25,799 nucleotides of DNA from a virus. Positions 3,243-13,183 of this stretch are shown here, piece after piece. The stretch spans positions 1 through 25,799 of the IMG/VR virus record IMGVR_UViG_3300040809_000708; one strand, written 5' to 3'. Below the pieces are notes generated by a model that had not been told where the DNA came from, did not search any database, and saw nothing but the letters and a program-made list of their open reading frames with translations. Numbering within the stretch: the stretch's first letter is position 1; the number at the start of each line of letters is the position of its first letter. A program made the translations under genes and the position numbers.

Positions 3243-4376
3243 TTAGCCCCGTTTATATAAAAACCCCACGCTATACCTCAGAGCGTCAAGAAGGTGATTA
3301 AATGAATCGACGGGCTTTTCAGTCGGTCGTTCGTTTTTGTCTAAGTGCCAAACATAAGAGCCTAGTTCCCTTTCTAAGTCCTTGCTTCGTCTTGTGTACA
3401 GAACCTCCTTGGACTGGAGTAGCTTAATACCATTCCTAATAGAGTCAGGCCCCTTAATTGCTCCTATTGCGTTTAGTCCCCCTCGTCTTAGTTCGGCTAT
3501 GCTCTTAGGTTCTGCGCTATCACAAATAACCCGTAGCCCCTCACATTCGTGTTTTATCTTCTCAACTAACTCAGTATTAGTAAGATGCGTTTCGTACACC
3601 AGTTCATCGACATAAACACGGTCATTATGCTTACCGACCTTTAGGACTGCCGTGGGGTCTTGGCTAAAACCGAAGTCGATACCAATGCAAACATCTGAAC
3701 ACTCCGAAAAGTCTAGTTCTTCGACCTTGGTGAAGTTCCTATAAATTCTACCCTTCTTACCCCGTCCCCTTTCACCTAAACCAAACACGGCCCAATCTTC
3801 AGGGCTTGACGTTTTAAGGCTCTCTATTTCCGCAATGATAGACTTTGGAAGGTGTGGGTTGTCCTTATAGGTGGTGACAATTAAAGCCGCATCTTCTCTA
3901 GACTCTACTTCGTACCACCAGCCGTCTAAATCGCTAGGGTTGTAACTAAGGATAATAAACCCCGTGGTTCTATATGATAGTTGCCTAAATGACTCAGCGG
4001 TTATCTCGTTACACTCGTCTAAGAAAAGTGCATCCCGTTTCCTACCTCTTAGCTTTTGGGGTTGATCCAAAGAAATAAATTCAACGGTGTTCCCACGAAG
4101 CTTATAGATTCCCTCGGTCTTATTGTGGTCTTCCTCCACATACGCCTCAAAGCTTTGCAGAATCTCAACGAAGTCCCGAAGGGTTGAGGCTTTTAAGGCT
4201 GGTAATGTTTGCCTAGCAATGGTAATAACCATTCCAGCATTGGGGTACTTATAACAAAGTTCAATAAGGAACTGAACGGCACTATATGACTTTCCCGACC
4301 TTGTGCCCCCTCTTAGGCTTATAAGCCTCTTAGACTCGTGGTTTTCTCTTAGAAATTTAAGGTTCGGGTTCGTCAT
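3243..4376 (-). CDS. Terminase large subunit
   Basis: The 377-residue packaging motor and nuclease fills the procapsid with DNA. The ATPase domain has a Walker A motif GGTRSGKS (residues 23-30) and a Walker B motif LFLDE (117-121), with the SYNPSD coupling segment near 144-149. The nuclease domain begins at GIDFG (232-236, Asp234) and includes a second acidic site VICDS near 283-287 and a final Asp in DSFNHLLDALRY. The length is typical. I place the start at ATG 4376; the reading frame stays open to a TTG at 4382. It overlaps the small terminase gene by 20 bases. The headful versus cos mechanism cannot be told from the sequence. Confidence 0.93.
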   Translation of the reverse strand: MTNPNLKFLRENHESKRLISLRGGTRSGKSYSAVQFLIELCYKYPNAGMVITIARQTLPALKASTLRDFVEILQSFEAYVEEDHNKTEGIYKLRGNTVEFISLDQPQKLRGRKRDALFLDECNEITAESFRQLSYRTTGFIILSYNPSDLDGWWYEVESREDAALIVTTYKDNPHLPKSIIAEIESLKTSSPEDWAVFGLGERGRGKKGRIYRNFTKVEELDFSECSDVCIGIDFGFSQDPTAVLKVGKHNDRVYVDELVYETHLTNTELVEKIKHECEGLRVICDSAEPKSIAELRRGGLNAIGAIKGPDSIRNGIKLLQSKEVLYTRRSKDLERELGSYVWHLDKNERPTEKPVDSFNHLLDALRYSVGFLYKRG

Positions 4377-9677: not shown

Positions 9678-10094
9678 ATGGCTAAGATGGATGGGCTTTA
9701 CGTCCGTGTTCAAACAGATTCGGCAACACCTGGAACCGATGCGGCAATCGCTGGGGTGGTTAGTTCGGCAATGAACATCACTACTAACGAGATTGATACC
9801 ACTTCTTACGAGGGTTCGGGAGATTATACGGGTATAGCTGGAACTCGTTCCGCTGACTTTTCCGCTGACTTTCACCTTGAGGCTGACGGATCAAACCTTA
9901 CCACGCTGATGGCTGACCAAAAAGCTGGGACTATCTTGGATTTCGTTTATGGTGGTACTACTACGGGGGACTTTCAGATTTCAGGAACTTGCTACATTAC
10001 TGCGATGAACATTACTGCTAGTATTGATTCAGCCGTTAACGTATCTATGTCTTTCCGTGTTACTGGTGCTCTCACTCTTGGGGTTGCTCCTTAA
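9678..10094 (+). CDS. Major tail tube protein
   Basis: The 138-residue product resembles small TP901-1-like major tail proteins, which stack as hexamers to form the siphovirus tube. The evidence is the beta-rich repeating pattern: GLYVRVQTDS, a T/S-rich loop (NEIDTTSYEGSG), GTRSADFSADFHLE, then GTCYITAMNITAS and the closing VNVSMSFRVTGALTLG, where tail proteins have a strand of the form SFRGTG. It has its own promoter and terminator on the plus strand among early genes, opposite to all other tail genes, and is absent from its normal slot. A monocistronic cassette would suit the many copies needed. Confidence 0.82.
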   Translation: MAKMDGLYVRVQTDSATPGTDAAIAGVVSSAMNITTNEIDTTSYEGSGDYTGIAGTRSADFSADFHLEADGSNLTTLMADQKAGTILDFVYGGTTTGDFQISGTCYITAMNITASIDSAVNVSMSFRVTGALTLGVAP

Positions 10095-10544: not shown

Positions 10545-10747
10545 AAAACCTATTTGAACGACTAGAACGCCACGGGGTGACGTTTGAAAAGGACGTTATC
10601 CGAACTCTAAAGGTCAACCTTTACCCTTCTATGCTTCCCCTTTATACTGCCGCTGGTGTGTGGTTTGCGATGCGTAACGCTGGGGTTGTTGAAGGCTCTT
10701 TCTCCTTTACTAAATTCATTGAACTTTTCGAAGATGCTGAAGCTTAG
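10541..10747 (+). CDS. Unknown small protein
   Basis: The 68-residue product is unrecognised. It begins MKNLFERLERHG, has a short hydrophobic middle (LPLYTAAGVWFAM) too weak for a sure membrane segment, and ends in an acidic helix (FIELFEDAEA). It overlaps both its neighbours (ATGA upstream, 14 bases downstream), which supports its being translated as part of the operon. Confidence 0.65.
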   Translation: MKNLFERLERHGVTFEKDVIRTLKVNLYPSMLPLYTAAGVWFAMRNAGVVEGSFSFTKFIELFEDAEA

Positions 10748-11309
10748 AGATGTACTCCTTTTCGCGTGTGACTATGTGGGAACTGATGTCAGCCAAGTAA
10801 TGTCAACCACGAGAACACCGCCACTAGTTAAGACCCGTGTAATTTATGCTAGTATTGCTAGGGCACTCACGAACAAAACCCTTGGGGAAATAGCTTCCCT
10901 TATTGGTAGGGATCACGCCACAATTATCTATTACACGGATAGGAAGCCTTCTGAGGTTTACCGCGATTTAATTCTAAACGCTACAAAAGCCTTCACCGAT
11001 AAACACGGGCACGAACTAGAGGCTTTTACAGACCAAGAACTTTCCATCTTTGACCTGAACGATAAGCTGAAACTTCGGGTCTTTAAGGAGCGGAAAAGGT
11101 CACTAGAGAACCTGCGAATAATTAAGGGGAATCTTGACCAGGTTAAAGATAAGTGGGTTAAAGTCAAGTTGTTACCTTTGATAGATGAGGAAATCTCACG
11201 GCTGGACACTTTGTTGGAGTTGCGCGACACCGTTCCTGAAGAACAAAAGCGAGCAAATGGTTTGCTCCGTGGAGTGCGCAATAAATCTCCAAAGTGGAGT
11301 AATGTCTAA
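10734..11309 (+). CDS. DnaA domain IV-like DNA-binding protein
   Basis: The 191-residue product carries, at about residues 5-72, the DNA-binding domain of the bacterial initiator DnaA. The segment VIYASIARALTNKTLGEI leads to the signature-like SLIGRDHATIIYY, comparable with the G-RDHSTV-HA helix-turn-helix that reads DnaA boxes. The AAA+ ATPase part of DnaA is absent. Residues 90-191 are charged and probably coiled coil. I set the start at ATG 10734, where the conserved domain begins; upstream codons in frame overlap the previous gene. It may recruit the helicase to the phage origin or interfere with host DnaA; both are inference. Confidence 0.78.
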   Translation: MLKLRDVLLFACDYVGTDVSQVMSTTRTPPLVKTRVIYASIARALTNKTLGEIASLIGRDHATIIYYTDRKPSEVYRDLILNATKAFTDKHGHELEAFTDQELSIFDLNDKLKLRVFKERKRSLENLRIIKGNLDQVKDKWVKVKLLPLIDEEISRLDTLLELRDTVPEEQKRANGLLRGVRNKSPKWSNV

Positions 11310-11811
11310 GAAGGCTACTTGGACTCACTCACGTTGGTTAGAGGAACTTCAAAAGGACGTGAATAAAGCCGTTCGGTTAATTGACCAAGGTCACCCTTGT
11401 ATAAGTAATGGTTCAGCCTTCAAGGAGGGTATTATGGACGCTGGGCATTATTACGCTAGATCAACTCACCCCGTTCTAAGGTTCCACCTTTTGAATATTT
11501 GGGGACAATCTAAGTACGACAATAGATTTATGGAGGGAAACCGTCAGGGCTTCTCTAAGGGACTTTCTTTGGTGGGTGGTCATACCCTACTAGAAGAGAT
11601 AGAAACGCTCCCACAAGTCTTTAAAACGGGTAAATGGAGTATTCCTGAGTTGTCTACCGCTCGTGACGTGGTTCGGTCGTTCGTTCTTGACTTTCAGAAA
11701 AAAAGCTATTACCTTGAGAATGAGGATAGAATAAAACTGAAGAGGGAGTTAACCGAATTAACTGGGCTATATGAAATAGATTTGATGCGTAAAAACATCA
11801 CTAACCTCTAA
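11302..11811 (+). CDS. NinG/Rap-like recombination protein lacking its cysteines
   Basis: The 169-residue product resembles NinG (Rap), a lambdoid Holliday-junction endonuclease. It shows the family order HPCISNGS, MDAGHYYARSTHPVLRFH, NIWGQSKYDNRF and QGFSKGL. In typical members the first motif is CISCG and the third has two more cysteines, forming a zinc site; here only one cysteine (in PCISNGS) remains. The DAGHY histidine and surrounding residues are kept. The start is ATG 11302, overlapping the previous stop by eight bases. With ERF, exonuclease and SSB it makes a full recombination set, if it is active. Confidence 0.8.
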   Translation: MSKKATWTHSRWLEELQKDVNKAVRLIDQGHPCISNGSAFKEGIMDAGHYYARSTHPVLRFHLLNIWGQSKYDNRFMEGNRQGFSKGLSLVGGHTLLEEIETLPQVFKTGKWSIPELSTARDVVRSFVLDFQKKSYYLENEDRIKLKRELTELTGLYEIDLMRKNITNL

Positions 11812-12021: not shown

Positions 12022-12291
12022 ATGACACGAGCCGAACAGATTTCTAGGGTCTATGACCAACTAAAGGAACTCCAGCTTTCCAAAAATGCCGACTATGGGA
12101 ATAGTGCCTTTGATGACGTTGAGGTTTTTGGGGAAGTGATCCCAGCGAAGAACGGAATTCTAGCACGGATAGCAGACAAGCTAAAGAGGTTGGAGAGTGA
12201 GAACTTGGAGGTTAGTGAAAGTAAGTCAGACACAATAAAAGATTTAATTGGTTATCTTGTCATTCTATTAATACTAGATGAAACACGGTAG
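12022..12291 (+). CDS. DUF1599 / nucleotide-modification-associated domain protein
   Basis: The 89-residue product matches the short all-helical pattern of DUF1599/Nmad1-type proteins: a lysine before the key KNADYGNSAF motif (about 20-29), NGILARIADKLKRLE in the middle and SDTIKDLIGYLVIL at the end. Such proteins have a MazG-like look and are often found beside phage DNA-modification genes; their activity is not firmly known to me. Here the gene overlaps the methyltransferase gene by 14 bases, which supports a link with nucleotide or DNA modification. Confidence 0.7.
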   Translation: MTRAEQISRVYDQLKELQLSKNADYGNSAFDDVEVFGEVIPAKNGILARIADKLKRLESENLEVSESKSDTIKDLIGYLVILLILDETR

Positions 12292-13183
12292 CCTATTTAG
12301 TGGAATCGGAGGCTTTGACCTAGCGGCTGAATGGATGGGGTGGGAGAATGTGTTTCATTGTGAATGGAACGAGTTCGGTCAGAGAGTTCTTAAACACCAC
12401 TTTCCTAAAGCTTTATCTTATGCAGACATCACGGAAACAGATTTCAATGTTCACAGAGGAAGAATTTCAGTCTTGTCAGGCGGCTTCCCTTGTCAACCCT
12501 ATTCAAGTGCTGGAAAGCGACTCGGAAAAGAGGATGAACGCCACTTGTGGCCCGAAATGCTTAGAGCAATTCGAGAAATTCAACCACGTTGGGTCGTGGG
12601 CGAAAACGTTCTCGGCCTTGTTAATTGGAATGGGGGGCTGGTATTCGAAGAGGTGCAAGCTGACTTGGAAGCTCAAGGGTACGAAGTCCAACCGTTTATA
12701 CTTCCAGCTGCAAGCGTCAACGCTCCCCACCGAAGAGATAGAGTGTGGTTTGTTGCTTACTCCCACGAGCGTAATGACAGACGAACCGCCCGAAAAGATG
12801 AGAGAGAGAGCGGAGCGGAACGGATACAAGAACGGGACGCAGTACGGCAGTTTGTTGAGTCAAGTGAAGTACAGCGGAATGCTCCCGACTCCGACATGCT
12901 CGGATTCGAACGGCAGCGGGAGTGCAGAGGCATTAAAAAAGAGAGGCAGAGGCGAGAGGAACGATTTAGGCAGCTGGGCAACATTGAACACCGATGGGAA
13001 AAATTCCCAACTAAACCCCCAATTTGTAGCGGAGATGATGGGCTTTCCGACAGATTGGACAATATCACCTTTCCTAAGTGGCGAAACGAATCCATCAAAG
13101 CCTACGGAAACGCAATAGTACCCCAAGTAGCGCACCAAATTTTTAAAGCAATAGAAGCTTATGAAGAGTCCTTATTACACTGA
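12278..13183 (+). CDS. dcm: DNA (cytosine-5) methyltransferase
   Basis: The 301-residue enzyme should transfer methyl from S-adenosylmethionine to C5 of cytosine, probably shielding phage DNA from host restriction. Motif I is LFSGIGGFDLA (6-16), motif IV GGFPCQPYS (68-76) with nucleophile Cys72, motif VI ENV (109-111), motif VIII RRDRVW (152-157) and motif X GNAIVPQV (277-284). The target-recognition region (about 165-255) is unusually rich in Arg and Glu. That region is also read in another frame as a second candidate protein (12420-13118), which could explain the biased composition. No partner restriction enzyme is present, so it is an orphan enzyme. Confidence 0.93.
   Translation: MKHGSLFSGIGGFDLAAEWMGWENVFHCEWNEFGQRVLKHHFPKALSYADITETDFNVHRGRISVLSGGFPCQPYSSAGKRLGKEDERHLWPEMLRAIREIQPRWVVGENVLGLVNWNGGLVFEEVQADLEAQGYEVQPFILPAASVNAPHRRDRVWFVAYSHERNDRRTARKDERESGAERIQERDAVRQFVESSEVQRNAPDSDMLGFERQRECRGIKKERQRREERFRQLGNIEHRWEKFPTKPPICSGDDGLSDRLDNITFPKWRNESIKAYGNAIVPQVAHQIFKAIEAYEESLLH
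12420..13118 (+). CDS. Overprinted ORF inside the methyltransferase gene
   Basis: A 232-codon open frame runs entirely inside the methyltransferase gene in another frame; the open stretch goes back to an ATG at 12348, and a third start candidate is 12447. Its product does not read like random shadow sequence: it has CKLTWKLKGTKSNRLYFQL, the words LLTPTS and MLPTPTCSD, and ends with LNPQFVAEMMGFPTDWT followed by PSKPTETQ. I recall these words as recurrent in phage proteins linked to cytosine methyltransferases, including an LNP-FVEWMMGFP-GWT segment. Function is unknown; it might assist target recognition. Whether it is translated, and from which start, cannot be settled from one sequence. Confidence 0.6.
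   Translation: MQTSRKQISMFTEEEFQSCQAASLVNPIQVLESDSEKRMNATCGPKCLEQFEKFNHVGSWAKTFSALLIGMGGWYSKRCKLTWKLKGTKSNRLYFQLQASTLPTEEIECGLLLTPTSVMTDEPPEKMRERAERNGYKNGTQYGSLLSQVKYSGMLPTPTCSDSNGSGSAEALKKRGRGERNDLGSWATLNTDGKNSQLNPQFVAEMMGFPTDWTISPFLSGETNPSKPTETQ

Follow-up and report, generated by a model that had tools for sequence, protein, structure and literature searches.

The question raised by this locus is whether a second open reading frame, contained within a phage cytosine methyltransferase (MTase) gene, encodes a protein, and what that protein has to do with the enzyme. The window analyzed was the entire IMG/VR record IMGVR_UViG_3300040809_000708 (25,799 bases), in which tailed-phage genes were identified (terminase, portal, major head protein, tape measure, ERF, NinG and a DnaB-like helicase). 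A DnaA C-terminal domain protein (10656-11309) and the NinG homologue (11185-11811) overlap by 125 nt on the same strand in different frames, and a tail-tube-like match (PF06199, 1.8e-5) lies at 9678-10094 on the + strand amid early genes, the head and tail genes being on the minus strand. Directly upstream of the MTase, and sharing 14 nt with its start, the gene at 12022-12291 gave a weak match to DUF1599 (nucleotide modification associated domain 1) that fell below the cut-off (E = 0.0018); it is possibly a linked modification gene.

The MTase frame, termed alpha, matched PF00145 (E = 5e-45), TIGR00675 (7.5e-41) and phrog_363 (E = 2.5e-74), and the criteria for a C5 cytosine MTase (PF00145) were met by its motifs I, IV (PC), VI (ENV), VIII and X. 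Motif IX was not found when the alpha sequence was read through, and the equivalent block sits in the +1 frame, termed beta; the criterion for a single-chain C5 MTase, motif IX between the target-recognition region (TRD) and motif X on the same chain, was not met by alpha. The sequence-only reading had credited the main frame with all key catalytic motifs, which held for I-VIII and X, but the motif IX-like segment occurs only in the second frame. Positions of the features are given in Table 1.

Table 1. Features of the alpha and beta frames, with the evidence for each (positions refer to the window)
Feature	Position	Strand	Evidence
Alpha: C5 cytosine MTase frame, 301 aa, motifs I-VIII and X	12278..13183	+	PF00145, TIGR00675, phrog_363
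Possible N-terminal extension of beta from an earlier ATG, probably not used	12348..12419	+	Upstream stops in relatives
Beta: nested +1-frame gene, 232 codons from the conserved ATG	12420..13118	+	Openness, start, dN/dS, phrog_1008
Alpha motif IV GGFPCQPYSSAGKR, catalytic PC	12479..12520	+	Translation
Beta conserved N-block CGPKC...GGWYSKRCKLTWKLKGTKSNRLYFQL...LLLTPT, over alpha motifs V-VIII	12546..12764	+	Alignments A1/A2
Alpha motif VIII region APHRRDRVWFVA; +1 reading is beta LPTEEIECGLLL	12722..12757	+	Translations; both frames constrained
Variable region: putative beta TRD with LPTP module; alpha R/E-rich, unconstrained	12758..12997	+	dN/dS
Beta motif IX-like block LNPQFVAEMMGFPTDWT	13011..13061	+	dN/dS; aligns with fused single-chain MTases
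Alpha motif X YGNAIVPQVA	13103..13132	+	Translation; VIII...X order same in relatives

The +1 frame of the window gene runs for 256 codons from the ATG at 12348 and for 232 from the ATG at 12420, with the stop ending at 13118; a second ORF of 232 to 256 codons, wholly inside the MTase gene and in another frame, had been read from the sequence alone, and its coordinates were exact. The open run of 264 codons compared with a mean of 90 in shuffles in which synonymous codons were permuted within each gene (p <= 0.005). When viral contigs were searched with the main protein alone, 74 distinct MTase genes were obtained (window included), and the +1 open run was present in all 74 (190-325 codons, median ~254; shuffle null ~95), with a median open run of 37 codons in the +2 frame. 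Among relatives retrieved with alpha only, beta was found in the +1 frame in 80/80 of the gamma type (78 nested, 2 partly overlapping) and in 80/80 of the Firmicute type (79 nested, 1 partly overlapping), and the 80 bacterial loci retrieved with the beta alignment, mostly Bacteroidota, all carry the arrangement. No excess of +1 openness was seen in four canonical single-chain MTases (p 0.31-0.66). The proposal of dual coding would have been refuted by frequent stops in the alternate frame of homologous genes; the stop-free frame was kept throughout all four sets of relatives.

Window beta matched phrog_1008 (E = 2.2e-22) and had no match in Pfam (E <= 10), NCBIfam or the PDB. An HNH domain was not detected by Pfam in window beta (E <= 10) or in related betas, and a hidden HNH endonuclease within the methylase gene was rejected on this ground. 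In L463 (alpha 1373-2414) alpha is open and three stops interrupt beta, the reverse of what was seen in the integrated Bacteroides copies described below. In L188 (3586-4681) the beta-frame ORF includes in-frame MTase N-terminal sequence (main HMM 164 bits); the joined frames suggest a frameshift or a sequencing indel.

An in-frame ATG lies +130 to +160 from the main ATG in 54 of 56 non-redundant relatives (the window not counted), in nearly every case at +142 or +145 (12420 in the window) and usually right after an in-frame stop, and 12420 was taken as the beta start because of this conservation. Upstream of this ATG, the frame is closed in most relatives by a stop immediately before +115 or +139. 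In the gamma type the beta ATG is at +4, i.e., 4 nt past the alpha start. There alpha opens with ATGAATGAG in 68/71 genes and its codon 2 is AAT in all 71 (elsewhere in those genes AAT was used 317 times and AAC 435 times); the beta ATG at +4 results from this codon, and a single ribosome site can serve both starts. AGGAGG-like sites precede several Firmicute-type betas (e.g., L391, L392, L401).

As main-frame third positions are alternate-frame second positions, a change that is silent in the MTase will nearly always alter the second protein. Across 57 sequences (<85% identical), alternate-frame residues were far better conserved than in shuffles, with peaks at 12593-12727 and 12998-13087 (at 12638-12682, 0.76 vs. 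a null of 0.36), and beta columns of F, L, P and W were invariant where the alpha residue varies (e.g., F 57/57, L 57/57). A moderate excess of conservation over shuffles was also seen in regions outside the overlap. Since the shuffle null also breaks shared ancestry, conservation z-scores alone overstate the case, and substitutions were therefore counted in 25 independent pairs, in both directions per pair, with beta-frame dN/dS conditional on a change in the main frame and intervals from a bootstrap over pairs. The counts were rerun with gap-free neighborhoods, closer pairs and bootstrap, as gaps in the alignment of the variable region might otherwise have raised the counts there.

Beta-frame dN/dS was 1.12 (0.78-1.60) before the overlap, 0.48 (0.36-0.59) over main residues 50-160, 0.48 (0.34-0.62) in the variable region, 0.37 (0.27-0.49) in the LNPxFV..MMGFPxDWT block and 0.78 (0.45-1.31) after that block. 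The corresponding alpha-frame values were 0.12, 0.18, 1.21 (1.01-1.46), 0.83 (0.53-1.36) and 0.16. Purifying selection on the second frame is confined to the overlap (dN/dS 0.37-0.48), and the alpha frame is unconstrained in the variable region (1.21). Reduced synonymous change, the other outcome on which dual coding had been made to depend, was thus observed inside the overlap only. The sequence-only reading had also placed a target-recognition region in the arginine- and glutamate-rich part of the main product, where it judged the second frame densest; the second frame is indeed constrained there, but the alpha stretch looks like filler.

The alternate-frame words picked out by that reading do exist, and LNPQFVAEMMGFPTDWT is among the best conserved parts of the second frame. 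This block falls in the same alignment column as the block that fused single-chain MTases have in frame, and it resembles canonical motif IX, e.g., LTVREGARLQSFPDW and LSVLESKRIQGFPDDF of canonical MTases. Motif IX was not recognised by Pfam in beta, and hhalign of beta against four canonical MTases gave no signal (too few sequences). The identification of the block as motif IX rests on pattern, on position and on fused and split relatives. In the beta variable region the number of LPTPxxxD modules varies (e.g., L002, L003, L290); these may be recognition modules that differ in number between phages.

Relatives of beta are also encoded without nesting. The mycobacteriophage Connomayer carries adjacent 'DNA methylase' genes, gp79 and gp78, that overlap by 26 nt only; gp79 ends after motif VIII, and gp78 comprises an LPTP-type variable region (TRD), LNAAFSEWMMGWEEGWVTD (IX) and motif X. 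Partial overlap was found in Smooch gp7/gp6, in Arthrobacter phage ArV1 067a/067b and in the Firmicute-type contig L399, in which alpha stops after motif VIII and motif X is in beta. Neighboring genes annotated 'DNA methylase' or 'DNA methyltransferase' in L172, L173 and L174 (mycobacteriophages, ArV1) read as halves of a split C5 MTase. One-frame chains with I-VIII, TRD, IX and X occur in six actinophage-like contigs (L288, L290, L291, L293, L298, L300), and phrog_1008 links window beta with both the split and the fused relatives. An HMM built from actinophage C-terminal halves only scored the window second frame at 12.5 bits, above all 300 synonymous shuffles (maximum 9.1), and the gamma types at 31-41 bits; some other nested relatives were weakly separated, e.g., L161 and L175, whose scores were reached by 5/300 shuffles. 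Pfam matches of the split and fused proteins to PF00145 ended at about profile position 160-167 and never reached motif IX, and ArV1 067b, used as a query against viral contigs, retrieved nothing but itself. The AF2 model of fused L291 (mixed alpha/beta alignment) had a pTM of 0.72, with pLDDT 94-98 for residues 351-420, and matched M.HhaI end to end (Z 24, 2.7 A, 245 residues). The model of window beta alone (104-row alignment A2) was poor (pLDDT 63, pTM 0.29), and VIA-align gave only meaningless matches for it (Z <= 4.2).

We hold with high confidence that a split C5 MTase is encoded here, its two polypeptides being read from overlapping frames; the translation of beta in this phage, the assembly, the DNA target and any role against restriction are inferred. 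Alpha would bind SAM and carry out catalysis through motifs I-VIII and X. Beta, very probably translated from its own internal ATG, would supply the target-recognition region and motif IX, and the two would assemble into one enzyme, for which there are no complex data. Such an enzyme may modify the phage DNA and perhaps host DNA, e.g., against host restriction, although no expression or enzyme data are available.

Judged from homology, the second frame very probably encodes the beta subunit of the enzyme itself, and not an unrelated overprinted protein, because relatives of the second-frame protein elsewhere, where they do not overlap, form the C-terminal half of a C5 MTase. The 'candidate partner' suggested earlier is thereby supported and made specific, since the same protein is a separate gene in mycobacteriophages and part of a fusion in actinophage-like contigs. 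A real overprinted protein that is not a subunit, for instance one that regulates or inhibits the MTase or counters restriction, would be in keeping with the lack of any Pfam, NCBIfam or PDB match for beta and of complex or activity data; it is improbable given the split and fused genomes, and given that alpha lacks the very block that beta carries. A de novo overprinted accessory gene was rejected, as homologues exist without overlap. That beta is made mainly within a frameshifted alpha-beta-alpha chain, one polypeptide with I-VIII, IX and X, has a natural parallel in the in-frame fusions of actinophage-like contigs. Such a chain would, however, require a +1 and then a -1 shift in a gene with few homopolymer runs (G6 at 12632, A6 at 12935), and the beta start codons are conserved, most strongly in the gamma type; it was considered more improbable still.

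Hardly any weight was left for the two readings in which there is no second protein. The usual assumption in annotation would make the second frame a shadow ORF that arose by chance in a conserved gene, and alpha motifs such as PHRRDRVWFVA do dictate part of the alternate-frame wording, but the shuffle tests, the dN/dS values, the absence of excess openness in canonical MTases and the non-overlapping homologues are against it. Constraint on RNA or DNA structure was not addressed by a direct folding test; it was given as little credence, because changes synonymous in beta were tolerated more than those that alter beta, and because beta is homologous to proteins encoded without overlap.

Comparable enzymes exist outside this family. 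The architecture of M.EcoHK31I (YGGCCR) has been known since 1995, and M.EaeI is built likewise; the small polypeptide of M.EcoHK31I is said, after Lee, Kam and Shaw in 1995, to be translated from another frame inside the large-subunit gene. M.AquI and M.EcoHK31I are natural two-polypeptide C5 MTases; M.EcoHK31I carries motifs I-VIII, motif X and the predicted TRD on its large subunit, and motif IX on the small polypeptide only (PMC3404938). The term 'naturally split' has been used of such an MTase (PMC3439449). Window alpha likewise has I-VIII and X, with motif IX only in beta (where Pfam does not detect it), and beta is nested in another frame of the alpha gene, as is said of the small polypeptide of M.EcoHK31I. 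Judged by this architecture alone, the motif split and the nesting, the window locus would work like M.EcoHK31I. It differs in that the window type sits in phages and prophages of several phyla, and in that selection places the constrained region in beta, whereas the TRD of M.EcoHK31I was assigned to the large subunit.

M.AquI is similar as a C5 MTase split in the variable region, and Connomayer gp79/gp78 and L399 look like the M.AquI form, but its motif X is in the small subunit and that of the window is in alpha. The M.AquI genes are not known to be nested. The criterion for that type (large subunit ending after VIII; small subunit with TRD, IX and X) was met by L172 and L399 and not by the window.

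The family phrog_1008 ('DNA methyltransferase') covers window beta, nested Paenibacillus proteins and stand-alone proteins of mycobacteriophages and Arthrobacter phage. Its nested members end near position 283 of 329, short of motif X, and its name is silent on the nesting, within an MTase gene, of most of the members found here. In a Paenibacillus larvae phage the same nested ORF was annotated by the depositors as 'g49/g50 internal gene', and is recorded as a hypothetical protein without function. For ShiLan, an HNH homing endonuclease inserted as a second frame in a phage methylase gene has been described (PMC11855218). The window differs from that case of insertion in that beta has no Pfam match and would be part of the enzyme's own anatomy. 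A literature search for the nested MTase arrangement in phages found nothing. The architecture is counted as of a known kind, because an experimentally known enzyme, M.EcoHK31I, has it; its breadth and the interconversion of split and fused forms were nowhere found described.

The same arrangement was found in phages of Bacteroides, Porphyromonas, Lacticaseibacillus, Paenibacillus, Edwardsiella, Gordonia and Acinetobacter, in a marine phage, and in plasmid records of Enterobacter and Leptospira. In host genomes it was uncommon (3/198 Bacteroidota, 13/369 Gammaproteobacteria, 4/299 Bacillota), and wherever beta was scored in these three groups it was in the +1 frame over alpha. Dual-coded MTases apparently form one clade in phages and prophages of at least four bacterial phyla. 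In integrated Bacteroides copies (L252, L253 and L254, alpha from ~3826-3838; L258, alpha from the left end), alpha is intact save for in-frame TGA codons, all at conserved or plausible Trp positions (LAAE[W]MGW, FSR[W]RQ, FRG[W]RG, DP[W]NA, QY[W]AG), the first being directly followed by ATG. No TGA interrupts the beta frame of these copies, and the loci yielded no tRNA gene; either UGA readthrough or recoding, or decay of TGG to TGA, is possible.

A tree was built from the N-terminal part of alpha (74 rows, 163 columns), with canonical enzymes represented by four long-branched sequences only. All beta-bearing enzymes fell on one side of the branch from the four canonical enzymes (support 99/98); nested, split and fused forms were interleaved in the actinophage clade, and the split L399 lay among nested Firmicute types. 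The topology favours a single putative origin of dual coding, after which the overlap would have been loosened repeatedly, giving split or fused genes, with root and direction unsettled because of those four long-branched sequences. We proposed reciprocal overprinting, in which a single-chain MTase would have moved its own TRD and motif IX to the +1 frame, once, the arrangement persisting across phyla with several reversions; the prospects of this proposal being right or wrong were judged even. The alpha frame would be ancestral in the 5' half, with the beta N-terminal block as newcomer, and the beta frame would be ancestral in the 3' half, where the R/E-rich alpha stretch would be filler. The reversions would be several returns to split or fused genes.

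Same-strand nested genes of 200-300 codons with both frames under selection have rarely been documented in bacteria or phages. Annotation usually retains one of two nested genes, and dual coding appears to extend here to an entire, widespread clade of phage MTases; several families of 'unknown function' (phrog_26627, phrog_27243, phrog_35493) match parts of beta. If dual coding is confirmed, many database entries for seemingly complete cytosine MTases contain one half of the enzyme only, and this could account for clones without activity and for wrongly predicted specificities. Nested, split and fused relatives provide a natural series in which the rise and dissolution of overlapping genes can be followed.
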